Below are positions 35,241 to 47,623 of a stretch of DNA of 64,000 nt, in pieces. Source of the stretch: Mariprofundus sp. EBB-1 (lineage in GTDB: Bacteria > Pseudomonadota > Zetaproteobacteria > Mariprofundales > Mariprofundaceae); NCBI RefSeq assembly GCF_003665155.1, contig NZ_RCFQ01000010.1, positions 1 to 64,000 of the forward strand. Direction: 5' to 3'. Below the pieces are notes generated by a model. The model saw nothing but the letters and a program-made list of their open reading frames with translations. It made no database searches and was not told the DNA's origin. How positions within the stretch are numbered: the stretch's first letter is position 1; every line of letters starts with the position of its first letter. A program made the position numbers and the translations under genes.

Positions 35241-36592
35241 GCCTATCCAATGTCAGTATGATCGGATTTCCCGCCCATGAAGAAGCCGAATTGCGCGTAC
35301 AATTTGGAGAACTACTCCCACAAACCCATATTGAGTCACTTCCCATTGAGGGTGTTCAGGCCGATTTAAGCGCTGATGCCTTGATTTTCATATGGGATAG
35401 TATCACTTCACCCTCTATCGTCCGCCGTCTGTTTGAAGCCAACCCACAAGCCAATATTGTTATCATTACCGATAGTGGAGAGAGCGAACGTGGTGCTAAT
35501 CTTATGCATTTGGGGGCAATTGATTACAGATTGATGCCTGTACCTGATGAAGTCCTGGAAATTTACATTCGTAAAAGCGGCCATCAGAGCGCCTTGGCCA
35601 AACAGGCGGATGTACAAAAAACCAAGGCTAACAACACACATGAGATGTTTGTCACCGAAGACTTAGAAACACGCCGACTTCTCGACCGTGTTGCCCTGAT
35701 AGCACCAAGCAATGCTTCAGTTCTGGTTGTCGGCGAATCAGGAACAGGAAAAGAACGATTGTCGCGCTATGTGCATGCCTGCTCAAATCGGGAGAATGCC
35801 AACTTTATCGCCATCAATTGCGCTGCTATTCCTGAAGGCGTGCTGGAAGCTGAGCTGTTCGGCCATGAAAAAGGCGCTTTTACCGGAGCCACTTCTGCTC
35901 GTCCCGGTAAATTCGAGTTGGCACATAAAGGCACACTACTACTCGATGAAATCACTGAAATGCCGGTTCATCTACAAGCCAAATTATTGCGAGTACTGCA
36001 AGAAGGTGAAGTTGACCGCTTAGGTGGCAATAAGCCCGTTAAAATTGATGTGCGTGTCATTGCCACCAGCAACAGGGATCTGACAAAAGCTGTGCAGGAA
36101 GGATCTTTCCGTCAGGATCTCTATTACCGCCTTAATGTCGTCTGCATTCAATTACCTCCATTGCGCCAGCGCAATAATGATGTCAAACCTTTAGCGCTTC
36201 ATTTTCTGCAACGCTTTTCAGAGATGTATGGCAGGCCAGCACCAAGGTTATCACCGCAAGCCATTGATCAACTGCAGCGTTATGCATGGCCGGGCAATGC
36301 ACGCGAATTAGAAAACTGCATGCATCGCGCCTTCTTAATGGCTGTAGACGAACTGATTATACCCGAACACCTCTGCCTTGATGACCCCATGGCGGCCAAT
36401 ATGACGCATGAGCAAGGTGATGCAGTGCAAGCGGGTGTCTCGATCCGAGATATGGAGCGCACGCTCATCGAAAAAACGCTGGTGCATGTGCAAGGTAATC
36501 GTACGGAAGCAGCCCAATTGCTTGGCATAAGCATCCGAACACTGCGCAATAAACTCCACACCTACGATTCTGGCATGGCATTTGCTGGATAG
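35237..36592 (+). CDS. Sigma-54 activator with degenerate receiver (FleQ/FlrA/FlbD-like)
   Basis: 451 residues. The first 120 look like a receiver fold (VSMIGFPAHEEAELRVQFGE, then IVIITDSGESERGAN) but lack the acidic pair after strand 1 and the Lys after strand 5 (RLMPVPDE). Control by phosphorylation is therefore unlikely, as in FleQ. The AAA+ domain is intact: GESGTGKE, GAFTGA, GTLLLDEITEM, FRQDLYYRLNVVCI. The C-terminus QGNRTEAAQLLGISIRTLRN is a Fis-type helix-turn-helix. It ends 94 bases before flgB and is the natural candidate for the master activator of the following flagellar run. FleQ-type proteins also bind c-di-GMP, which would fit the neighbourhood. Confidence 0.87.
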   Translation: MSLSNVSMIGFPAHEEAELRVQFGELLPQTHIESLPIEGVQADLSADALIFIWDSITSPSIVRRLFEANPQANIVIITDSGESERGANLMHLGAIDYRLMPVPDEVLEIYIRKSGHQSALAKQADVQKTKANNTHEMFVTEDLETRRLLDRVALIAPSNASVLVVGESGTGKERLSRYVHACSNRENANFIAINCAAIPEGVLEAELFGHEKGAFTGATSARPGKFELAHKGTLLLDEITEMPVHLQAKLLRVLQEGEVDRLGGNKPVKIDVRVIATSNRDLTKAVQEGSFRQDLYYRLNVVCIQLPPLRQRNNDVKPLALHFLQRFSEMYGRPAPRLSPQAIDQLQRYAWPGNARELENCMHRAFLMAVDELIIPEHLCLDDPMAANMTHEQGDAVQAGVSIRDMERTLIEKTLVHVQGNRTEAAQLLGISIRTLRNKLHTYDSGMAFAG

Positions 36593-36686: not shown

Positions 36687-37088
36687 ATGGACATGTTCGG
36701 CAGCGGTTTTCAACGTCTTGAATCATCATTAATAGCGCGTGAAAAAATGCAAAGTTCTATCACCAGCAATATTGCTAATGCTGATACACCAAACTACAAG
36801 GCGGACAAACGAAACTTTGCTGACTTTTTAGCGGACCAGAACAATCTTGGAAGCCATTCAAAAGCCGCCACCACCCATGCAAGGCATTTTGCAGAGACCA
36901 ATACCTCTTCCCTATTGGGCAGTAACATTTATCAACAAGAAAATTCACGCAAAATTGATGGCAACAGCGTAAACCTTCAATCTGAAATGGCCCGTATGTC
37001 CGAAAATCAACTGATGCATGAGCTTTCCATGCGCCTGGTTAAAGGCCGCTTGACTGGTTTGATGAACGCCATCAAGGAAGGAAGGTAA
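36687..37088 (+). CDS. flgB: Flagellar basal-body rod protein FlgB
   Basis: 133 residues, the typical size. It has the N-terminal rod-protein signature (about residues 17-35: KMQSSITSNIANADTPNYKA) and C-terminal amphipathic helix with SENQLMHELSMRLVKGRLTG. FlgB is the proximal rod subunit, exported by the flagellar type III apparatus without a Sec signal. GGGAGT lies upstream of the ATG. First gene of the structural run flgB-flgC-fliE-fliF-fliG-fliH-fliI-fliJ-motE. Confidence 0.94.
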   Translation: MDMFGSGFQRLESSLIAREKMQSSITSNIANADTPNYKADKRNFADFLADQNNLGSHSKAATTHARHFAETNTSSLLGSNIYQQENSRKIDGNSVNLQSEMARMSENQLMHELSMRLVKGRLTGLMNAIKEGR

Positions 37089-37094
37089 ACGCTC

Positions 37095-37544
37095 ATGGCC
37101 AATGATCTTCTATCTTCTATGCATATCAGCGCTGCTGGTATGACTGCCCAACGCACACGTATGGATATTGTCTCTGAAAATATTGCTAACGCAGAATCCA
37201 CGCGCACTGAGAATGGTGGCGGCCCATACAAACGCCGACAAGTTGTATTTCAGGCAGTTACACCGCAACAAACATTTTCACATGTGTTCAATAGCGCTTT
37301 TCAGCCTGATAAACATCAGTCAGTCAAAGCCGCTTATATTGCAGAGGACAATAAGCCATTTCGCGAAGTATATGACCCATCTCACCCTGATGCAGATAGC
37401 AATGGCATTGTAAAAATGCCCAATGTTAATCCCGTTCAAGAGATGGTCGACATGAATGGCGCTGCCAGAAGCTTTGAAGCCAATGTTACTACTATGGAAG
37501 CATCCAAACGGATGTTTTTAAAATCACTCGAATTACTTCGATAG
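37095..37544 (+). CDS. flgC: Flagellar basal-body rod protein FlgC
   Basis: 149 residues. The N-terminal signature SAAGMTAQRTRMDIVSENIA then NAESTRTENGG and the C-terminal MVDMNGAARSFEANVTTMEA then SKRMFLKSLELL are those of FlgC. Proximal rod component, exported by the flagellar secretion system. Six bases separate it from flgB, and GGAAGGTAA is the ribosome site. Confidence 0.95.
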   Translation: MANDLLSSMHISAAGMTAQRTRMDIVSENIANAESTRTENGGGPYKRRQVVFQAVTPQQTFSHVFNSAFQPDKHQSVKAAYIAEDNKPFREVYDPSHPDADSNGIVKMPNVNPVQEMVDMNGAARSFEANVTTMEASKRMFLKSLELLR

Positions 37545-37553
37545 GAGTTCCGC

Positions 37554-37871
37554 ATGAATATTCATGGATATCAATCCTCACCCGGGCCTAGCTCAATCAC
37601 GACTCCCGGCAACAATTTTCAGGATGTCGGCAAAACAGCTTCCTCTGGGGAAAAAAACTTCGCCACGCTATTGCAGGCATACACTCAACAGGTCAACAAT
37701 GATGTCAAAACAGCCGCAAAAGGTGCCGAAGGACTTGCAACAGGCGAAGTGCATAATACCTCGGAAACGCTATTAGCCATTAAAAAGGCTGACCTATCAT
37801 TTCAATTGATGCTTGGCGTACGCAACAAACTGGTTGATGCATATCGCGAAATTATCCGCATGCAGGTATAG
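37554..37871 (+). CDS. fliE: Flagellar hook-basal body protein FliE
   Basis: 105 residues. The C-terminal half is typical FliE: VHNTSETLLAIKKADLSFQL then MLGVRNKLVDAYREIIRMQV. It joins the MS ring to the rod and is the first substrate of the export gate. GGAGTTCCGC precedes the ATG, nine bases after the flgC stop. Confidence 0.95.
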   Translation: MNIHGYQSSPGPSSITTPGNNFQDVGKTASSGEKNFATLLQAYTQQVNNDVKTAAKGAEGLATGEVHNTSETLLAIKKADLSFQLMLGVRNKLVDAYREIIRMQV

Positions 37872-37930
37872 CACCCAACACATCACCACATTTTACAGGC
37901 AGATTAAAGCATATATAGAGGTGCACCATT

Positions 37931-39568
37931 ATGGCTGACGGATTGACGCCACATACACAGACGGCAAATCAAATGAACCCGACACTGGTTGACCCGGGCA
38001 ATCATGAAATTGGTCAGGGCGCTACCATTCAAGTGCCACAGGTGTTAGCTAAATATAGAAGAATCATGTTGTTCACTGCTGCCAGCCTGATGCTGGCGGG
38101 TTTTGTTAGCCTGGTATTATGGTCATCGGAAAAACCTTACCGGTCTGTTTATGCCGGTATGGCAGAAAAAGATGCCGCATCCGTAGTAGAGTTATTACAA
38201 AAAGAACACATCCCTTATCGTTTAGAAGGTGGCGGCACAGTCATGGTGCCAGAGGATCAGGTTTATCAGGTACGTCTTAAATTGGCCGGACAGGGGGTGA
38301 CACCATCAGGCAACACCGGCTTTGAAATTTTCGACCAGAGCAATGAATTCGGGCTTAGTGACTTCACCCGTAAAATTAACCTACAGCGTGCTCTTCAAGG
38401 AGAATTGGCACGCACCATCGAAGTGATGCCACAAGTGCATACTGCCCGCATTCACCTGGTTCTGGCTAAAGAATCTGCATTTGCAGAGCGTGATCGCAAA
38501 GCAACTGCTTCCGTCATGCTGCAGCTTGCCGGCGGACAGCGCCTACCCAAGAAAACAGTGGTCGCTATCCAAAACCTTGTTGCTGCCAGCATTCCTAATT
38601 TGGATCAAAGCAGTGTCAGTGTCGTTGATGCCTCCGGCACACTGTTATCAAGCAATGAAAAAGAAGCCCCAATGTCTGAAGGCCAAACGATGCAAGAGTA
38701 CCAAGGCAAACTGGAACAACGCATGGAGCAACGTATATCCGGTATGTTGGAGCAAATAGTTGGTGAAGGGCAAGCCGTAGTACGCGTTTCTGCTGATATT
38801 AACCGTGAGTTTGTTGACCAGAACAACACCCGCTATAATCCGGATGAACAGGTCTTACGTAGTCGAAAATCCAGTACAGAACAACGCACTTCAACCAGTG
38901 GTGCAGCTCTAGGTGTACCAGGCCTGGCTTCCAATACCCCCGGCGCTAATGGCACAGCCAACAATGCTGGCACTCAACCGAAGGATCTTGCCAAACGCAC
39001 CGAAGATGTGAACAATTTTGAAATAAGCAGCACCCAGGAACATCGCGTTATCCCCTTTGGCAGTATCCAGAAATTATCTGTAGCCACCATTGTCGGAGGT
39101 CACTACAAAACCGACGATAAGGGTGAGCAAACATTCACTGCCCGCAGCAAGGAAGAGATTGCTGATATACAAAAATTAATTGAACGTGCCATGGGATTTG
39201 ATGAAGACCGGGGTGACACGGTCAGTGTTCAAAGTATGCCCTTGATAGATATTGCCAGCGTAGTAGATAGCGAAGCACTCACCGCTTCAGAAAACCGGGT
39301 CTTTTATATGCAGGTTGCCCGCTACAGTCTTGCTGCGCTAGCGCTGTTATTGTTGGCCTGGTTTGTACTGCGCCCACTGGCAACACGCATTCAGGAATCT
39401 GCCGCCAATGACGATGAGCAAAACAAGGCAGGATCTGCCAACAACCCGAATCACCTTACCAACGAGGCAATGTCGCGCCTGGCCAACATGGAACAAGTCA
39501 AACACAGTATTCATCAAGAGCCAGACCGCGCCAATAAAGTATTCCGTGAATGGGTAGATCCGGCATGA
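37931..39568 (+). CDS. fliF: Flagellar MS-ring protein FliF
   Basis: 545 residues. TM1 at about residues 46-66 (IMLFTAASLMLAGFVSLVLW) precedes the YscJ-like ring-building domains (RSVYAGMAEKDAASVVELLQ; TPSGNTGFEIFDQSNEFGLS). A central linker rich in Gly, Asn and Thr (TSGAALGVPGLASNTPGANG) separates a second ring domain. TM2 lies at about 455-475 (VARYSLAALALLLLAWFVLR), and the cytoplasmic tail binds FliG. Its TGA overlaps the fliG ATG (ATGA). The RBS is GAGGTG. Confidence 0.96.
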   Translation: MADGLTPHTQTANQMNPTLVDPGNHEIGQGATIQVPQVLAKYRRIMLFTAASLMLAGFVSLVLWSSEKPYRSVYAGMAEKDAASVVELLQKEHIPYRLEGGGTVMVPEDQVYQVRLKLAGQGVTPSGNTGFEIFDQSNEFGLSDFTRKINLQRALQGELARTIEVMPQVHTARIHLVLAKESAFAERDRKATASVMLQLAGGQRLPKKTVVAIQNLVAASIPNLDQSSVSVVDASGTLLSSNEKEAPMSEGQTMQEYQGKLEQRMEQRISGMLEQIVGEGQAVVRVSADINREFVDQNNTRYNPDEQVLRSRKSSTEQRTSTSGAALGVPGLASNTPGANGTANNAGTQPKDLAKRTEDVNNFEISSTQEHRVIPFGSIQKLSVATIVGGHYKTDDKGEQTFTARSKEEIADIQKLIERAMGFDEDRGDTVSVQSMPLIDIASVVDSEALTASENRVFYMQVARYSLAALALLLLAWFVLRPLATRIQESAANDDEQNKAGSANNPNHLTNEAMSRLANMEQVKHSIHQEPDRANKVFREWVDPA

Positions 39569-40566
39569 AAAAAGCCAAACAATTAACCGGCGAAGACAAA
39601 GCCGCTATTCTGCTCTTCGCGCTTGGGCCGGAAGCTTCAGCTCCACTAGTACAGAATATGGATGATAAAATGTTAAGGCGCTTGGGCAGTCGCATGGCCG
39701 ACCTGGGCAAAATTGAAACCGACGTACTCAATTCGGTCATTGATGAATACTTAGAAATGCATCGCTCTGAGGATCCGCTGATGCGCTCCGGGCACAATGA
39801 TGTGGTCTCTCTGTTTCGCTATGCCATCGAACAGGATCGTGCTGATCGTATATTATCAGAAATGAACACACCTAAAACATTGACCATATGGGAAAAACTA
39901 TCACGCCTGAAACCGGCAATGATTGCCAATTCTATTGCTGATGAACATCCACAAACCATCGCGCTTATTCTGGCTCATATTGATTCGGGTGTAGCCAGCC
40001 GGGTTATTGCGCTCCTTCCTGAAGAGATGCAGCTATCGGTTGTGATTCGCATGTCTAAAATTGATACCGTGCCTAAAGAGCTGGTGCGCGACATCGAAGA
40101 AACACTCGAGAAAGAACTTGCCGATATGCAGGGTGAGTCAGGTATTAGTCTGGATGGTATGGTCAGTGTGGTAGATATCCTCAAAGGACTCGAAAAAGAT
40201 GTTGCACGGCCCATCCTTGATCAATTACGCGACAGAGATGAAGCCCTCTTTGCACAAGTAGATAGGTTGTTACTGATTTTTGAGGATCTTGTAGAATTAT
40301 CAGATCGCGACATTCAAACTATTCTCAAACACATCTCTTCCGATGACCTTGTCAAAGCACTCAAAGGCAGTTCCGATGAAGTCGGAGATCGATTCTTTGA
40401 TAATATGTCGCAACGCGCGGCTGAAATTATGCGCGAAGATATGGCTGTCATGGGGCCAATGAAAGTTGCTGATGTAGAAGATGCGCAACAGATTGTACTC
40501 AAAATTATTCGCAAACTGGATGATGATGGCGCCATCACACTCAGCAGCACCGATGATATGGTATAA
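39565..40566 (+). CDS. fliG: Flagellar motor switch protein FliG
   Basis: 333 residues from ATG 39565, overlapping fliF; the in-frame ATG 39550 lies within fliF and is less likely. Domains: N-terminal FliF-binding (LTGEDKAAILLFALGPEASA), middle (EHPQTIALILAHIDSGVASR), and C-terminal (LVELSDRDIQTILKHISSDD; REDMAVMGPMKVADVEDAQQ). The C-terminal domain carries the charged torque helix that meets MotA. Complete and typical. Confidence 0.96.
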   Translation: MKKAKQLTGEDKAAILLFALGPEASAPLVQNMDDKMLRRLGSRMADLGKIETDVLNSVIDEYLEMHRSEDPLMRSGHNDVVSLFRYAIEQDRADRILSEMNTPKTLTIWEKLSRLKPAMIANSIADEHPQTIALILAHIDSGVASRVIALLPEEMQLSVVIRMSKIDTVPKELVRDIEETLEKELADMQGESGISLDGMVSVVDILKGLEKDVARPILDQLRDRDEALFAQVDRLLLIFEDLVELSDRDIQTILKHISSDDLVKALKGSSDEVGDRFFDNMSQRAAEIMREDMAVMGPMKVADVEDAQQIVLKIIRKLDDDGAITLSSTDDMV

Positions 40567-40571
40567 GAGAG

Positions 40572-41258
40572 ATGAGTAGCCTTACCCCCCTTACTTTTCC
40601 GGAAGATCATCGTGAATCAACTCAATCGCGCAGTGCGTTCCCCTTCAGTCCCATTGATGCAAACCTATCCACATCGCCTAGTTTGAATACGAACCGCATG
40701 CAACAGTTGGAAAGCATGCTTAAAGAGGTACAGGGCAGAGCCGAAATTGTCGAAAAAGAAGCCTATGAAAAAGCTTATCTGGCCGGAGAAAAAGCAGGTA
40801 TGGAATTGGGCCGTAAGCGTGGTGAACAGATTCTTGAATCGTTACAGGAAACACTAAAAGAGACCGAAACCTCACTGGTCAGCATTCAACAATCCTTCGC
40901 AGAGGCAGCTATGGATGTTGCCAAACATATTGCCGAGGCCATCGTCGGTGAAACCATTAAAGCAGATCAGAACAGCTTATTGAACATTGCCAAACAGGCC
41001 TCAGATCAGCTTCCAGATAACACCGGCCTGCGTATTGCAATTTCACCGGATGATTATTCCAGTTTCCAGCGTTTGCTTGAAGATGAAGGATCCATGCTCG
41101 CCTTGAAACGTGATGCGACAGTCAAAAGTGGCACATGCAGAGTTATTACAAACCAACAGGATATTCTCATTGATCCTATTGCCGCCGTAGGCGATTATCT
41201 CAACACACTGCGACCAGTCCTGCTTGATGCATCAGCCCCCGACAAAGATGCCCAATAG
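40572..41258 (+). CDS. fliH: Flagellar assembly protein FliH
   Basis: 228 residues. The N-terminal 45 are variable, followed by a long coiled coil with spaced Gly (EKAYLAGEKAGMELGRKRGE, the GxxxG-type repeat of FliH). The C-terminal domain has AAMDVAKHIAEAIVGETIKA and RIAISPDDYSSFQRLLED. FliH dimers hold the ATPase FliI at the export gate and share ancestry with the peripheral stalk of F-type ATPases. The end overlaps the start of fliI. Confidence 0.88.
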   Translation: MSSLTPLTFPEDHRESTQSRSAFPFSPIDANLSTSPSLNTNRMQQLESMLKEVQGRAEIVEKEAYEKAYLAGEKAGMELGRKRGEQILESLQETLKETETSLVSIQQSFAEAAMDVAKHIAEAIVGETIKADQNSLLNIAKQASDQLPDNTGLRIAISPDDYSSFQRLLEDEGSMLALKRDATVKSGTCRVITNQQDILIDPIAAVGDYLNTLRPVLLDASAPDKDAQ

Positions 41259-42627
41259 CCATAAACCATTTCTCTGGGATGCAGCACAGCGTCAACAGCT
41301 ACTACAGCAACACCATGAACATAATGCGTTTCCTGTGCGTGGCAAAGTACATAAAGTGCTGGGACCAATGCTGGAAGCAACCGGTTTACCATCAAGCATT
41401 GGGCACGCTTGCAAAATCCATTGCAGTACAGGTCATAGTATCGAAGCAGAGATGATCGGATTTCGCGGTGATTATTCGCTACTAATGCCAGTTGGTAGCA
41501 CACGCGGCATAGCCCCCGGAGATGCAATCACACCACTTGCTACGACTCCATCCATTGAGGTCAGTGAGCACCTGTTAGGCCGCGTACTTGATGGCATGGG
41601 CAATCCCATGGACAATTTACCACTACAATCAAATACTTTTTTATCTTCAAAACATACCTATGCACTACATGGTAAACGTCTGAATCCATTCTTTCGTCAT
41701 ATTATTGACACACCTATGAATCTGGGTGTTCGTGCCATGGATGCCTGCCTGCCTATGGGCTGGGGACAGCGTTTGGGGCTATTTGCAGGAGCTGGAGTCG
41801 GTAAAAGTAGCCTGTTAGGTATGTTAGCACGCAATTCAGATGCTGATATTAATGTTATTGCTCTGGTCGGCGAACGTAGTCGCGAAGTACGTGAGTTTCT
41901 CGATCTTGCACTCGGGGCTGAGGCGTTGCAACACAGCGTGGTCATAGTCGCCACATCAGATATGCCCCCCGTACTTAGACTGCGCGCAGCCAATATGGCG
42001 ACTACCATCGCTGAAGCATTCCGATCAGATGGAAAACGGGTACTACTACTGATGGATAGCTTAACCAGAGTAGCCCAGGCCCAGCGTGAAATTGGACTGA
42101 TGCTTGGTGAACCCCCTACCAGCAAAGGTTATACCCCCTCCTGCTTTTCTATTCTTGCTGAACTACTTGAACGCTCTGGCCCGGGAGAAGGTGATAGTGG
42201 TGATATCAGCGCTTTTTATACGGTGTTGGTGGAAGGTGATGACCTGCAAGCAGATCCCATTGCTGATGCCTCCATGGCTGTGCTTGACGGACACGTTATT
42301 CTTGACCGCAACCTGTCAGAACAAGGGCATTACCCTGCTATTAGCATCCTAAAAAGCGTCAGCCGACTGGATGCACAACTAAGTACTCCGGAAGCACTGC
42401 AAGCTATGCGCACCTTACGTCAAAAACTTGCCATCTATGAACGCATGGAAGATATGATTTCAGTAGGCGCATATGAAACAGGAAGCAATCCGGAACTTGA
42501 TAATATTATCACCTTATTGCCTGATATACGTCAATTTTTGCAACAACAGACACATTCTGTTTGCACCAGAGAGAATTCGGCACAACGATTGCTAGAACTT
42601 GTAAGTAGGTTGGTAGTTCACAGCTAA
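41227..42627 (+). CDS. fliI: Flagellum-specific ATP synthase FliI
   Basis: About 466 residues of the F1-beta-like export ATPase. Walker A is GLFAGAGVGKSSLLGMLARN, followed by ALVGERSREVREFLD, Walker B RVLLLMDSLTRVAQAQREIG and GYTPSCFSILAELLERSGPG. LGRVLDGMGNPMDN and the C-terminal YERMEDMISVGAYETGSNPE fit FliI rather than the ATP synthase subunits. Both possible ATG starts, 41227 and 41248, lie inside fliH, and neither has a strong ribosome site, so coupling to fliH translation is likely. Confidence 0.95.
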   Translation: MHQPPTKMPNSHKPFLWDAAQRQQLLQQHHEHNAFPVRGKVHKVLGPMLEATGLPSSIGHACKIHCSTGHSIEAEMIGFRGDYSLLMPVGSTRGIAPGDAITPLATTPSIEVSEHLLGRVLDGMGNPMDNLPLQSNTFLSSKHTYALHGKRLNPFFRHIIDTPMNLGVRAMDACLPMGWGQRLGLFAGAGVGKSSLLGMLARNSDADINVIALVGERSREVREFLDLALGAEALQHSVVIVATSDMPPVLRLRAANMATTIAEAFRSDGKRVLLLMDSLTRVAQAQREIGLMLGEPPTSKGYTPSCFSILAELLERSGPGEGDSGDISAFYTVLVEGDDLQADPIADASMAVLDGHVILDRNLSEQGHYPAISILKSVSRLDAQLSTPEALQAMRTLRQKLAIYERMEDMISVGAYETGSNPELDNIITLLPDIRQFLQQQTHSVCTRENSAQRLLELVSRLVVHS

Positions 42628-42644
42628 CATACAAGGAGACAAGC

Positions 42645-43085
42645 ATGAAACTCAGCACGTCCAAAATACTGGCTCAGCTCAGCGAACAGGATCGCAAGAA
42701 AGTAGAGCTTGAGCTGTCTGAATTACATGCACATAAACAACGACTCATACAACAACAAAAAGACGTTCTCTCCCGGATACGGCAACTTAATGTACAGCGT
42801 GACCAAGTCATGAAAAAACGTAATACAGCATCCCTGCTGCAAGACTTTAATCTCTCTATACAAGAACAGCATTCCATGCTTACACTTATTTACTCCGGCT
42901 TACACGACATTGAAGCACAACAACAAGAGTTATTGGAAAAATTCAATATAGCATTCCGCAAACATCACAATTGTGAAAAAACACATCAGAAGAATCAACG
43001 CCAGCAACGCCATAAAGCTGAACAGAAACAACAACGTCAGCTTGATGACCTCTTTGCCGCCCGTCGGCCTACGGCAGCACGTTAG
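42645..43085 (+). CDS. fliJ: Flagellar export protein FliJ
   Basis: 146 residues, nearly all coiled coil (EQDRKKVELELSELHAHKQR, then a Gln-rich central part and a Lys/Gln-rich tail). Its length, composition and place after fliI mark it as FliJ, which inserts into the FliI hexamer like the gamma shaft of F1. Sequence conservation of FliJ is low, so position carries much of the call. AAGGAGACAAGC precedes the ATG. Confidence 0.85.
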   Translation: MKLSTSKILAQLSEQDRKKVELELSELHAHKQRLIQQQKDVLSRIRQLNVQRDQVMKKRNTASLLQDFNLSIQEQHSMLTLIYSGLHDIEAQQQELLEKFNIAFRKHHNCEKTHQKNQRQQRHKAEQKQQRQLDDLFAARRPTAAR

Positions 43086-43094
43086 GAGATGAGT

Positions 43095-43784
43095 ATGCGA
43101 AAACTCTCCATCACTATGTTTGCAATCATTGGACTACTATTTGGCAGTAAAATAGGCCTGCATATTTGGCAGATATCCTCCGAATCTGGCAATACACAAA
43201 CGCCATCCACTCAATCAATCGTGGTGAATGAAATATCACTACCAGAATTACCAAAAAAACCTGTAATAACACAACCCAACGCTATTCACAGCATGACTGC
43301 TGCAGACTCGCTTGCTTTGATTGAATCCTATTTGATTCCTTCCGCCAACGCTGAGGTTTCATCTCAATCTACACATAAAAGTATTATTGAAGACAAAACA
43401 CTCAGCTCCTTACGGCAACTTAAAGATGGACTGGATCAACGTGCAGACACGCTTGATCAACGCGAACAACATCTGCAACAGGCCGAAGAGAAACTGAAAC
43501 GCCGCATCACTGAACTGGAGCAACTTGAAGCCAGTATTCAGCAGCGCTTGTCTGATGAGTCCAAAATTAAGAGCAAAAAAATGAAACGCCTTACTGCAGT
43601 CTATGAAGGCATGAAGCCTGATCGTGCCGCAGCCGTCATCTCCGGCATGGAATTAGTTACTGTTGTAAAAATATTTTTACTGATGGATGAAAAGAAGGTC
43701 GGTAAAATTCTCTCTTTTCTGCCCCCTGAAAAAGCAGTGGTCATTAGTCAGGCGCTTACCCGCCGTATCAGTTCAGTTAAATAA
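43095..43784 (+). CDS. MotE-family periplasmic flagellar chaperone
   Basis: About 229 residues from ATG 43095 (GGAG six bases away; ATG 43089 would be too close). An N-terminal membrane segment (LSITMFAIIGLLFGSKIGLH) is followed by a linker, a coiled coil (about 105-160) and a C-terminal MgtE-N-like domain. That domain has YEGMKPDRAAAVISGMELVT and KVGKILSFLPPEKAVVISQA. This is the MotE layout; MotE stabilises MotC in rhizobia and occurs after fliJ in many flagellar runs. It starts ten bases after the fliJ stop. Confidence 0.85.
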   Translation: MRKLSITMFAIIGLLFGSKIGLHIWQISSESGNTQTPSTQSIVVNEISLPELPKKPVITQPNAIHSMTAADSLALIESYLIPSANAEVSSQSTHKSIIEDKTLSSLRQLKDGLDQRADTLDQREQHLQQAEEKLKRRITELEQLEASIQQRLSDESKIKSKKMKRLTAVYEGMKPDRAAAVISGMELVTVVKIFLLMDEKKVGKILSFLPPEKAVVISQALTRRISSVK

Positions 43785-43787
43785 CAC

Positions 43788-43976
43788 ATGCGCTTGAAAT
43801 TGCCATTTACAGACAAGAACGGCATTTCCAGCCAGACAACATTGAGCACGGTTGATGATGCGTATAAACACCTTGCATCTGCAAATAATCTCACGAAAAA
43901 ATATCGTTGCAGAGCATTTGACGGATCATTTATGCAGCACTCCCATAAACAAGCAACACAAGTGAGCCCACGATGA
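43788..43976 (+). CDS. Small coupled ORF of unknown function between motE and the channel gene
   Basis: 62 codons. It begins three bases after the motE stop and its TGA overlaps the ATG of the channel gene as ATGA (43973-43976). That two-sided fit is what a real coupled gene in an operon looks like, and is the main support. The product is polar and basic, with no membrane helix and no recognised family. Its own ribosome site is weak. Confidence 0.5.
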   Translation: MRLKLPFTDKNGISSQTTLSTVDDAYKHLASANNLTKKYRCRAFDGSFMQHSHKQATQVSPR

Positions 43977-46834
43977 AAATACACAACTTACGTTCTGTCA
44001 TTGCCGACAAACCTCTATTTTATCATCACATGGAATGGATCCTGATGCACCCGCGCTTCGGCTTCCTGATGATGGGTCTGATCGCCCTCTCCTTTACGCA
44101 TAATCAAGTGCTGGCCACAGTGCTCTTTTTATTCTTTCTGGCCGAATTAGGACTCCGTATCGCCATCATCATCAACAAGCGTCAAACGAACCCCTACCGC
44201 TCATCGTTGAATCAAAAAATTGACGTACTGTTTCTTGTGCTCGATGTTATTGGTATTGCATCCCTGTTAATCACCATATTCAACATCCCGCTTGATGCTG
44301 AAAATATCGCTGCAGCACGCCTGATACGCGCTTGTTATCTATTGCGTACGCTACGCATGTTCCGTTATCTGGATCTGCAAAGCGCAATGTACTCGCCAAC
44401 CTACGGCATGCTGATTTCGCTTATTATCCTGCTCTCATTTTTTGTTGAAGATATCATGATGTGGATCATCATCATTTTCTTCTCAGTCGAACTTGCTGTT
44501 CGCATGATTATTATGCGCAACATCGAATATGATTCGAAACAAGATAAAATCATGGAGTGGCTTTACTGGTGGGTCGATACCATAGCGACGATCGTCATGA
44601 TCCCGGCATTCGCTTTCATCCCTTATGGTGCTGCACTGCGTATGTTACGACTGGTACGCCTGTTACGACCATGGATGGTCATTATTCGCAACCTTAAAGA
44701 TGTTCTGCGTGAAGGACAGTTCATGCAGGAGATCAATCTGATCGTATTGCTATTGGCTGTGCTTTCGATTGGCAGCGGTGTCATCGGCCATTATACTGTC
44801 AAAGCCTTTGATTATACTCAGGATGGCATCATCAACATGGCCGATGATGGCATGTTTGCCCCCATCTGGTTTGCTTTCCGCATGTTCACAGATCCGGGCA
44901 ATACTGTGCATTTTCCACAAGGTTCAGGCATTGCAATATTTTCCGTCGTCGCCGTCATTTTGGGCGTATTTATCTTTGCTTTTTTCATTGGTATCGGAGC
45001 ACATATTGTCTCCGGGCTAATGGCAAAATTGCGCAATGAACGCTTAAACATCACGAACCACATGGTGATGTTGGGTTGGTCCAACGTATCCCCATTCATT
45101 GTGGAGCAGCTAAAAATCATCTCTGAACGCAGCTTTTCAAATCTAAAGTTAGTGGTTCTTAATAATAGTGAAAAAACACCCGAAGCATTGATCGAACACA
45201 GTTGGGTCTCATACCGTTGGGGTGAAACCGAAGACAAAAACTCACTGAGACGCATCAACCTCAGCCATGCCAGACAGGTCACTATCAATGTGCCTGACGG
45301 GTTTGGCAGCTCAGATAACCTGGCTTTTGCAAGCTATGCTTTGATCGCCGTGCGAAAAGCCCACCCGAATATCTATGTCAATGTTACAACACCCGGGCTT
45401 GCTGCACCGCATCTCGATTCCCACAAACATATGTTACAGGTTGGATGGGATACCACCGACTTTTACAACAAACCGACAGTGGTTTTATCGCAAGCAGATG
45501 TGCGCGCCAATATGTTCAGAAACATTCTTGTCTATAAAGATTTTGATCAGGTCATGGAACGCATGATGATCCCTGAACGCACTGAGGATTCATCTCTGCA
45601 AATCTCAGAATGGGGCGGATTACTACAACATGAAGATGGTCAAATCACATTGACTCTGCCGGATGAAAGTCAGTCTATGCCAGTCACAAAACTAGCCGCC
45701 AAACTACTTCTTCGTGGTGTCACGCTTGTTGCGATAAGTGATGACGAGGGACACCCTCACCCTATCTATACACTCGATAAACTTAAATTACCGATGCAAA
45801 TACCTTCACTGCTTGGCATGGCCATCAGTGCCAACGCACTCTTCTCTGAATCGCTGTATGTCATCAAGCAGTGCGATCTTTATAGGGAAGAAACTCACAC
45901 TACATATAGTCTCGATTTGCAACCTACCCAAACACACAAGCACCTCAAACTGCTCATTACCGGCTGGGTAGGTAGCCTTCCACTACTATTACAACGCATG
46001 CTTGATGACTTTGACACCATCGAATTAACCTTAATTGATGACTTGAGTGAAGCCGAATGCACTGATCAGCTGGCATATCTCCGTCGACGCGTAAATGAAA
46101 CAGCCGGTGCGAATGAGCGCATTAAAATTGATATTGTACGCTGGAACTTTGCAGACATGAATTTCCTGCGCCCTTATGTCAAAAATGCCGATAAAATTCT
46201 GCTTTCACGTAGCCCTCATCTAAAGGCACATGCCTATGCGAGTATTTCTAGTGTACTTTCTCACCTGGTCACCATCATCAATGAGCAAGGCACCAATCCC
46301 GAGATTTACCCGGTATTGGAAAACAGGGCTCAAGCACAATTACTGCAGGAAGAGCTGCAACGATTTAATTTACCACATGAAATACATATCACTGTCCCCA
46401 GTGCGTTTTATGGCACGTATGCAGCCCATACCAGCTATCACATGTATAGAGTCGAAAATCCTGAAGCATATGAGCTACAACGCACCCTGCGCCATACTAT
46501 TGACGATATGATGGGTGATACAGGCGATACTGATGAGATGGACATTCAGGTTCTTAGTGTAAACAGCCCCCTTCCTGAAGATGCTGAAGCACTCTTTGCA
46601 CAACTATTGAGTGAGGGTTATGTCTGGATTGGTTATCGACTAAAAGATAGCTTTGTATGGAGCGACCCTATACAGAATGCCATTAGAAAGTTATTCCCAC
46701 GCGAAGAAGATTACTCATGTTTACGCCAGCACCAAATCATCATCAATCCTTTTGGCAACCCGGTATCACGTTACTCATGGACAGAGTTCAGAGAAAACAT
46801 CGTAGAATTGATTGTCATTTCTGAGCAAACTTAA
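43973..46834 (+). CDS. Putative ion channel: two tandem voltage-sensor-like modules, one pore, CASTOR/POLLUX-like regulatory region
   Basis: 953 residues. Module 1 (about 30-135) has S2 with E58 and R62, S3 with D84 and D91, and an S4-like helix with Arg at 116, 119, 125, 128 and 131, every third place. Module 2 (about 145-240) repeats this: E173/R177, D202, and Arg at 223, 226, 229 and 232. Then S5 (254-271), a pore loop with TDPGN (306-310) and S6 (320-345). The cytosolic part starts with NITNHMVMLGWSNVSPFIVE, like the RCK-type NAD-binding region of CASTOR/POLLUX/SYM8 channels, and seems to hold two such domains. It is coupled to the 62-codon ORF after motE. Ion selectivity is unknown; CASTOR-type pores pass Ca2+ or K+. 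Confidence 0.8.
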   Translation: MKIHNLRSVIADKPLFYHHMEWILMHPRFGFLMMGLIALSFTHNQVLATVLFLFFLAELGLRIAIIINKRQTNPYRSSLNQKIDVLFLVLDVIGIASLLITIFNIPLDAENIAAARLIRACYLLRTLRMFRYLDLQSAMYSPTYGMLISLIILLSFFVEDIMMWIIIIFFSVELAVRMIIMRNIEYDSKQDKIMEWLYWWVDTIATIVMIPAFAFIPYGAALRMLRLVRLLRPWMVIIRNLKDVLREGQFMQEINLIVLLLAVLSIGSGVIGHYTVKAFDYTQDGIINMADDGMFAPIWFAFRMFTDPGNTVHFPQGSGIAIFSVVAVILGVFIFAFFIGIGAHIVSGLMAKLRNERLNITNHMVMLGWSNVSPFIVEQLKIISERSFSNLKLVVLNNSEKTPEALIEHSWVSYRWGETEDKNSLRRINLSHARQVTINVPDGFGSSDNLAFASYALIAVRKAHPNIYVNVTTPGLAAPHLDSHKHMLQVGWDTTDFYNKPTVVLSQADVRANMFRNILVYKDFDQVMERMMIPERTEDSSLQISEWGGLLQHEDGQITLTLPDESQSMPVTKLAAKLLLRGVTLVAISDDEGHPHPIYTLDKLKLPMQIPSLLGMAISANALFSESLYVIKQCDLYREETHTTYSLDLQPTQTHKHLKLLITGWVGSLPLLLQRMLDDFDTIELTLIDDLSEAECTDQLAYLRRRVNETAGANERIKIDIVRWNFADMNFLRPYVKNADKILLSRSPHLKAHAYASISSVLSHLVTIINEQGTNPEIYPVLENRAQAQLLQEELQRFNLPHEIHITVPSAFYGTYAAHTSYHMYRVENPEAYELQRTLRHTIDDMMGDTGDTDEMDIQVLSVNSPLPEDAEALFAQLLSEGYVWIGYRLKDSFVWSDPIQNAIRKLFPREEDYSCLRQHQIIINPFGNPVSRYSWTEFRENIVELIVISEQT

Positions 46835-47054
46835 AAGCGTTAAATATGGTCGTGGATCATCATTATCAACTTCTACACAAAAAGGTGATGATCACTTGTT
46901 CACTATTGCTCAAATAATGCTTCTGCGATGTTATGTGTCACCTTAAAAGAGGGTTAACTTGATTTATATCGGTACACCCGCCATCACAATAAAACAGCTT
47001 TTGCAGAGAAATAGTGAGACCGGATAATTCACCTGGTTCATTAAAAAATAATTA

Positions 47055-47109
47055 CATAAAAAAAGCCTCCGATGTTTCCATCGAAGGCTTTCTATGTGGC
47101 GGAGCGGAC
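47055..47109. repeat. Direct repeat copy A: tRNA-Asp 3' end plus terminator
   Basis: These 55 bases are identical to 47330-47384. They include the last 13 bases of tRNA-Asp with its CCA (on the minus strand) and the hairpin terminator with its T-run. Copies are offset by 275 bases. The arrangement resembles an attachment-site duplication or a slipped/recombined tandem duplication. Confidence 0.88.
47058..47091 (-). terminator. Second copy of the tRNA-Asp terminator hairpin
   Basis: Minus-strand stem AAAGCCTTCGATG, loop GAAA and stem CATCGGAGGCTTT are followed by T residues. Identical to the terminator at 47333-47366. Confidence 0.75.
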
Positions 47110-47120
47110 AGAGACTACTT

Positions 47121-47231
47121 CGGGCATCCATGCCCTACGCCCTGCGGGCCGCCGTCGTACCTTCGGCGTTCGCATTGGCTTCCTGCCAATGCGTCGAACC
47201 CGAACACGGCTTACTTCAGGCATCCATGCCT
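47121..47231. repeat. Two GGCATCCATGCC hairpins between the direct repeats
   Basis: CGGGCATCCATGCCCT (47121-47136) and AGGCATCCATGCCT (47218-47231), each preceded by ACTTC, flank GC-rich inverted repeats (CGCCCTGCGGGCCGCC; CATTGGCTTCCTGCCAATG). The same core is at 6213 and 25555. This material fills the space between the duplicated tRNA tails. Confidence 0.6.
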
Positions 47232-47329
47232 TCCGCCCTCCGAGCCGTCACGCTGTAACGTTCAGATTGACTATCCTGACAATCTGTCTCACCCATCCAC
47301 TCAGTTCTTCTACAGCTCAAAATATATTG

Positions 47330-47384
47330 CATAAAAAAAGCCTCCGATGTTTCCATCGAAGGCTTTCTATGTGGCGGAGCGGAC
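47330..47384. repeat. Direct repeat copy B: tRNA-Asp 3' end plus terminator
   Basis: The native copy, continuous with tRNA-Asp. It is identical over 55 bases to 47055-47109. Confidence 0.88.
47333..47366 (-). terminator. Intrinsic terminator after tRNA-Asp
   Basis: On the minus strand a 13-base-pair stem (AAAGCCTTCGATG with CATCGGAGGCTTT, one G-T pair) and loop GAAA are followed by seven T. It lies six bases after the tRNA CCA end. Confidence 0.9.
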
Positions 47385-47448
47385 GGGACTCGAACCCGCG
47401 ACCTCCGGCGTGACAGGCCGGCATTCTAACCAACTGAACTACCGCTCC
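47372..47448 (-). tRNA. tRNA-Asp (GTC)
   Basis: A 77-base cloverleaf on the minus strand starting GGAGCGGTAGTTCAGTTGG. The anticodon loop CTGTCAC gives GTC. The T arm is CGCGGGTTCGAGTCCCG, and the acceptor closes as CCGCTCC, G, then encoded CCA. A terminator hairpin follows. Upstream in transcription is tRNA-Thr. Confidence 0.96.
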
Positions 47449-47547
47449 AGCGGTTCGGTGCGCAAAGTAATCATTTACGAACCTAAAATCAACCCTAAAG
47501 ATTGATCTCAAAACAAGCTTCATTTAACACGCTGAAACCTGCCAAAA

Positions 47548-47623
47548 TGGTGGGCGCTGCAGGGTTCGAACCTGCGACCTACGGCTTGTAAGGCCGTTGC
47601 TCTCCCAGCTGAGCTAAGCGCCC
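47548..47623 (-). tRNA. tRNA-Thr (TGT)
   Basis: 76 bases on the minus strand: GGGCGCTTAGCTCAGCTGGG at the 5' end, anticodon stem ACGGC/GCCGT with loop CTTGTAA (anticodon TGT), T arm GCAGGTTCGAACCCTGC and encoded CCA. It is about 100 bases before tRNA-Asp in the same direction, so the two are probably co-transcribed. Confidence 0.95.

Follow-up and report, generated by a model that had tools for sequence, protein, structure and literature searches.

The window analysed here, a stretch of 64,000 nucleotides from the genome of a Zetaproteobacterium near Mariprofundus, carries on its forward strand an open reading frame with an ATG start (positions 43973 to 46834) that is real and encodes a protein of 953 amino acids. 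The best outside match of this protein was found in a Mariprofundus MAG (96% identity), and its orthologues in the Zetaproteobacteria, whose genes we designate type A channel genes, are 53-96% identical to it. Directly upstream and on the same strand lie flgB, flgC, fliE, fliF, fliG, fliH, fliI, fliJ and motE (36687 to 43784). The names from flgB to fliJ are presumptive, as they were given by sequence recognition without a profile test; the motE product is an MgtE_N-like coiled coil. We found no terminator-like site in the gap between motE and the channel gene of the window, and a sigma-54-like site (TGGCATGGCATTTGCT, 36571 to 36586, forward strand), which is a pattern match only, precedes flgB. 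Downstream of the channel gene the operon is broken, and HU, two tRNAs and a repeat come next. The segment from 47044 to 47623, where fliK, flgD and flgE are missing, contains two near-identical 66-nt repeats with a terminator-like palindrome, tRNA-Asp and tRNA-Val, and is likely a rearrangement point.

The predicted protein possesses the layout sensor-sensor-pore-RCK-RCK, an architecture that is well supported by the evidence given below. Two voltage-sensor modules come first, the one comprising S1-S4 (residues 20-131, approximately; 44030 to 44365) and the other S1'-S4' (residues 142-241, approximately; 44396 to 44695). Their key residues are F55-x2-E58-x3-R62, D84, D91 and the S4 residues R116, R119, Y122, R125, R128 and R131 in module 1, and F170-x2-E173-x3-R177, E195, D202 and the S4 residues R223, R226, R229 and R232 in module 2. 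The pore domain follows, with S5, a pore helix and S6 (residues 249-355, approximately; 44717 to 45037) and the putative selectivity filter T306-D307-P-G-N310 (44888 to 44902). The remainder consists of an RCK1-like domain that starts with NHMVMLGWS (45038 to 45892; GWS motif at residues 368-370) and an RCK2-like domain that starts with LLITGWVGSLP (45935 to 46831), all of these features being encoded on the forward strand. With two modules ahead of a single pore, the protein departs from the customary one sensor per pore, a layout that is typical of the voltage-gated superfamily without strictly defining it, and is hence a variant.

Conservation of the sensor residues was assessed in alignments of 13 rows (A1), 33 rows with 42-77% identity to the window protein (A2), and 50 rows restricted to the transmembrane (TM) region (A3). 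All 33 homologues of A2 possess F55, E58, R62, D91, R116, R119, Y122, R125, R128 and R131 of module 1, as well as F170, E173, R177, E195, D202, R223, R226 and R229 of module 2, while R232 is either R or K. The S2 motif F-x2-E-x3-R, which we take to be the charge-transfer centre as in Shaker (F290, E293, R297), the S3 acid and the R-x2-R ladder of S4 are present in both modules in 31-33 of these 33 proteins. The sensor-defining residues rank among the most conserved of the entire protein in A2, and in either module those that serve as gating charges or in charge transfer were observed to be near-invariant in the 33 homologues and largely so in the 50 sequences. A first-pass annotation, made from the sequence alone, had named E58/R62, E173/R177, D84/D91/D202, the arginines of both S4 helices and TDPGN at 306-310, and we found each of them as numbered. 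Its set of S3 acids was incomplete for module 2, where E195 pairs with D202 at the same spacing as D84 and D91 in module 1. D84 is D or E in 49 of the 50 sequences. An invariant tyrosine, Tyr122, stands in the middle of the module 1 ladder.

When the profiles of module 1 and module 2 were compared with hhalign, they aligned over their full length with a score of 45.5. Control profiles with shuffled columns scored at most 10.9, those shuffled in five blocks at most 18.4 (60 shuffles of each type), and the reversed profile scored 1.9. The two modules are, as judged from this profile alignment, homologous to each other; chance resemblance as the source of the internal repeat was considered and rejected, because no shuffled control approached the score obtained. 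A search of all PDB sequences with the profile of the TM region (A3) returned 21 matches (E up to 1), of which the top 20 are all voltage-gated K+ channels or MthK. KvAP was matched over S1-S6 by profile positions 136-340, i.e., module 2 and the pore (E 0.0024), and KCNQ2 by positions 37-121, i.e., module 1 (E 0.015); KCNQ1 and Kv1.2-2.1 were also found, and MthK was matched over the pore and the start of its RCK. These matches link the modules to known sensors at the level of observed homology.

PF00520 matched four of the 33 homologues at E up to 0.1, with a best value of 1.1e-9. In the relative L057 it reached 26.2 bits against a cut-off of 25, in two stretches that cover module 2 and the pore (S2'-S6); module 1 alone was matched in L060 (3.2e-5) and L055 (0.0025). 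The window protein itself was without a PF00520 match in the Pfam search, Pfam and NCBIfam yielded nothing above cut-off when it was used alone, and a single-sequence phmmer search of the PDB gave chance matches only. The PF00520 search that the first-pass annotation had proposed as a check therefore succeeded for each module separately in relatives and failed for the window protein. The absence of any ion-channel profile hit, which would have spoken against the annotation, did not materialise, since relatives and family profiles match channels, though the window protein alone matches no channel profile.

We modelled residues 1-365 with AlphaFold2 (mean pLDDT 81) and obtained eight helices arranged as 4 + 4, followed by S5, a pore helix and S6. 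The helices span residues 27-40, 45-72, 78-102 and 109-126 in module 1, residues 142-155, 161-183, 189-208 and 219-246 in module 2, and residues 249-275, 295-306 (pore helix) and 318-355 in the pore domain. Of the PDB structures that Foldseek matched to this model, the top 50 belong without exception to the KCNQ, Kv, Shaker or MlotiK1 channels, with probabilities of 0.98-1.00. Their E-values (>1e-3) and TM-scores (0.3-0.4) were weak, since a query of ten helices fails to superpose in its entirety, and individual bundles were not inspected for their geometry. With this reservation, the model contains the two four-helix sets, and a model lacking S1-S4 bundles, which would have refuted the earlier claim, was not obtained. 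Internal homology, the KCNQ2 and KvAP profile matches, PF00520 in relatives and the model all uphold its central proposal that a pair of sensor modules in tandem precedes a single pore; likewise, the KvAP match over S1-S6, the model and hhalign place an S5-P-S6 pore behind the second sensor. A crossing parity of 4 + 4 + 2 with the C-terminal RCK domains inside fits this anatomy. A full-length model built with 13 close orthologues was poor (pLDDT 53), and no conclusion was drawn from it; the RCK assignment therefore rests on sequence.

The C-terminal part had been annotated as CASTOR/POLLUX-like. Homology to these channels held up, membership in their Pfam family did not: PF06241, which the annotation had itself proposed as a check, matched neither the window protein nor the 33 homologues nor anything else in the source genome. 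From PF06241 proteins collected across the phylum we took eight bacterial CASTOR/POLLUX-type proteins (A4), which match CASTOR structures at 5.5e-90 and for which hydropathy indicates no more than two TM helices. The hhalign comparison of A2 with A4 gave a colinear alignment with a probability of 98.0 (E 2.3e-13) and 527 columns that run from S5 past the filter and the GWS/RCK1 region to the second GW motif of RCK2, where the RCK2-like start is aligned with LLIGWNHR of the second RCK of the bacterial proteins. With the A1 profile, RCK1 of DMI1 is matched at E 0.5, and the GWS motif is part of that alignment. Slo-like_RCK, the best RCK profile, appeared below its cut-off in 15 of the 33 homologues (best 1.9e-4), and for the RCK2-like domain there was no Pfam match. 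With homology observed from pore to RCK2, the C-terminal 700 residues are, on this profile evidence, a diverged CASTOR/POLLUX core, distantly related to PF06241 proteins and not one of them.

The putative filter T-D-P-G-N shares D and GN with A-D265-S/A-G-N-H-A of CASTOR, which has been reported as a Ca2+-regulated Ca2+ channel (PMC6697748). In six of the 33 homologues A replaces the filter D. A paralogue clade (L055, L056, L057, L060, L082, L084) possesses MAAGN rather than TDPGN and may differ in selectivity or be non-conducting. The protein might act as a membrane-potential sensor that conducts barely or not at all, its S4 helices being moved by voltage and its RCK ring signalling by contact to chemotaxis or motor proteins. 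The MAAGN clade without an acidic filter residue would suit such a mode of action, given that D265N abolishes the current of CASTOR (PMC6697748), and so would the close linkage of the genes to MCP and CheA-CheW genes. Since no type A or B protein departs from GN in the filter, D307 is kept in most proteins and S5-P-S6 is highly conserved, we regard signalling with little or no conduction as improbable.

Each part of the window channel is found in known systems. Bacterial CASTOR/POLLUX-type proteins (2TM and two RCKs, PF06241; e.g., L069 7276-9180) and plant CASTOR/DMI1 have a comparable pore with a D-x-G filter, a GWS-type RCK1 and a GW-type RCK2; however, they lack S1-S4 sensors, with two TM helices in the bacterial and four predicted in the plant proteins, whereas the window protein has two modules and no PF06241 match. 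The 6TM channels KvAP, KCNQ and MlotiK1, which are voltage-gated or of the CNG type, share S1-S4 with a charge-transfer centre and S5-P-S6 but have one sensor per pore domain without a tandem second; the filter of K+ channels is TVGYG. BK/Slo1 and MthK likewise combine a pore with an RCK gating ring; MthK is devoid of sensors, BK possesses a single one (plus S0), and their filters differ from that of the window channel. Two-pore channels (TPC) contain two sensors in one chain, yet in the order sensor-pore-sensor-pore, with two pores rather than one. When the open literature, without subscription papers, was searched for channels in which a tandem, double or additional sensor precedes a single pore, none emerged; the results concerned two-pore channels, the dimer of Hv1 and unrelated subjects. 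As far as we can tell, it is the order sensor-sensor-pore-RCK-RCK and its link to motility that are new.

The channel family is present in 53 of 73 Zetaproteobacteria genomes. In a set of 397 genomes from across the phylum, the sole match outside the class was an ordinary 2TM CASTOR/POLLUX-type protein, and no relative was found on plasmids. A distant clade of paralogues (type C; 1000-1700 amino acids) is set apart in the tree by a branch with full support; its members have 23-27% identity in the TM region (22 sequences) and keep both modules, and their long C-terminal extensions contain no recognisable domain. Overlapping matches in type C proteins had suggested extra sensor copies, which we rejected, as the overlap represents one split alignment in register.

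Type C bears on whether both modules function. Only sensor 2 might work with the pore, module 1 being a structural or regulatory pseudo-sensor for subunit contacts or partner binding, so that the protein would behave as a one-sensor channel. Module 2 alone is contiguous with S5, and in module 1 the invariant Tyr122 replaces a basic residue, as would be expected from such an arrangement. A vestigial module should, however, decay first, whereas the module 1 S4 of type C stays R-R-Y-R-R(-R) and that of module 2 is down to R223 and R226. It is therefore not module 1 that is decaying, and we consider its reduction to a pseudo-sensor unlikely. Sensor bundles independent of a pore occur in nature, as Hv1 illustrates, and this counts in favour of the possibility that the sensors themselves conduct protons. 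Hv1 requires an S1 aspartate, but neither module has a conserved acidic residue within S1 (positions 27-45 and 142-161; types A and B); we rejected proton conduction by the sensors as scarcely credible.

In many loci across genera, type A genes are located 3' of flgB-flgC-fliE-F-G-H-I-J-motE and 5' of fliK-flgD-flgE; FliK, FlgD and FlgE were confirmed by Pfam in L072. In genus g6 (L072, L073) it is the upstream side of the operon that is broken, and the channel gene stays with fliK-flgD-flgE. A small ORF of about 155 amino acids without a Pfam match is found between motE and the channel gene in two genera (L010 7511-7978; also L012). The type B genes L051, L052, L058 and L059 adjoin cheA, and L051, L052 and L059 also cheW. 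Type C genes had an MCP gene directly upstream in all six neighbourhoods examined and cheA downstream in five of them. In genus g4 and for some paralogues (L006, L078, L055, L060) the channel gene lies away from motility genes; in a g4 genome its neighbour (L078 6352-8115) encodes a GGDEF-EAL protein (c-di-GMP turnover).

Co-occurrence was scored for channel types A and B in 39 genomes that were at least 90% complete. The channel was present in 24 of 26 genomes with native FliG and in none of 13 without it (Fisher p 1.3e-8, kinship ignored). Counted among the latter were G017, G042 and G044, which have a different FliG (41-44% identity; at C14:86130, C1:123190 and C1:2094164, respectively) and no channel; their flagellar system has apparently been replaced. 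In a Lon tree, six supported independent pairs differ in the native flagellum, and the channel was concordant in 5.4 of them on average and opposed in none (p 0.03-0.06). A shared operon place makes joint loss easy. Flagellar genes are listed among those specific to stalk formers (PMC8250860), and a stalk-forming lifestyle that underlies both channel and flagellum is a possible confounder.

The coupling to a flagellar run that had been inferred from the window alone is consequently stronger than first claimed, as operon place across genera, chemotaxis-linked paralogues, co-occurrence and tree pairs are all observed; a role in motility remains an inference. A housekeeping cation channel that maintains the balance of K+ or divalent ions, or acts as a safety valve, could have come to lie in a flagellar operon by chance, and the genes away from motility loci in g4 and among the paralogues are what one would then expect to see. 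Such a coincidence would have to be reconciled with adjacency in several genera, the chemotaxis neighbours of other paralogues, two different operon breakpoints (window versus L072/L073) after both of which the channel remained with flagellar genes, and its absence from genomes without a native flagellum. We give it very little credence.

We consider it probable that the protein is the subunit of a tetrameric cation channel, a member of the voltage-gated superfamily with two tandem sensors, one pore and two CASTOR/POLLUX-type RCK domains, which is voltage-gated, probably also ligand-gated, and linked to motility. Tetramer formation, conduction, selectivity, voltage response, ligand and any effect on swimming are inferred, without functional data. 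Each chain would have its N-terminus inside, cross the membrane 4 + 4 + 2 times and end inside, and in the tetramer a single pore would be surrounded by eight sensors and joined to a gating ring in the cytosol. A change in membrane potential would move S4 of sensor 2, which would pull on the S4-S5 linker and open the cation pore. Sensor 1, which is better conserved than sensor 2 across the paralogues, would move in the same field and might tune, bias or gate sensor 2, and a ligand in the cytosol (Ca2+, if the analogy with CASTOR holds) would provide a further signal through the RCK ring. Made together with the native flagellar apparatus, the channel may act on the motor or the Che pathway through cation entry or voltage feedback. 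For an iron oxidiser with a microaerophilic way of life, membrane potential would report the local redox supply, and voltage-to-swimming coupling would therefore amount to energy taxis, from which such an organism could benefit. That two functional tandem sensors per pore and a CASTOR-type RCK ring constitute a membrane-potential sensor within the flagellar apparatus and the chemotaxis machinery of Zetaproteobacteria, the paralogues being tied to the motor and to receptor arrays, is a more tentative proposal, to which we assign slightly less than an even chance.

A precedent is NaVBP, a voltage-gated channel of alkaliphilic Bacillus that functions in both motility and chemotaxis (Ito et al., 2004, cited in PMC4225499). 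Unlike the window channel, NaVBP is a single-sensor Nav channel without RCK domains. We know of no flagellar operon location for its gene. A sensor-sensor-pore channel represents a natural experiment on the control of a single gate by two S4 helices in series, and it is a candidate for the way in which evolution adds and duplicates sensors. Its place among flagellar and chemotaxis genes provides a named gene with which direct use of membrane voltage in bacterial steering, a long-standing question, becomes testable; how Mariprofundus PV-1 matches its motility to chemical gradients has, according to PMC3179512, yet to be established. A type C gene (L020 7805-10729, contig C23) is present in the source genome as well; like L065-L070, it encodes a DPG filter and is located directly 3' of an MCP gene.
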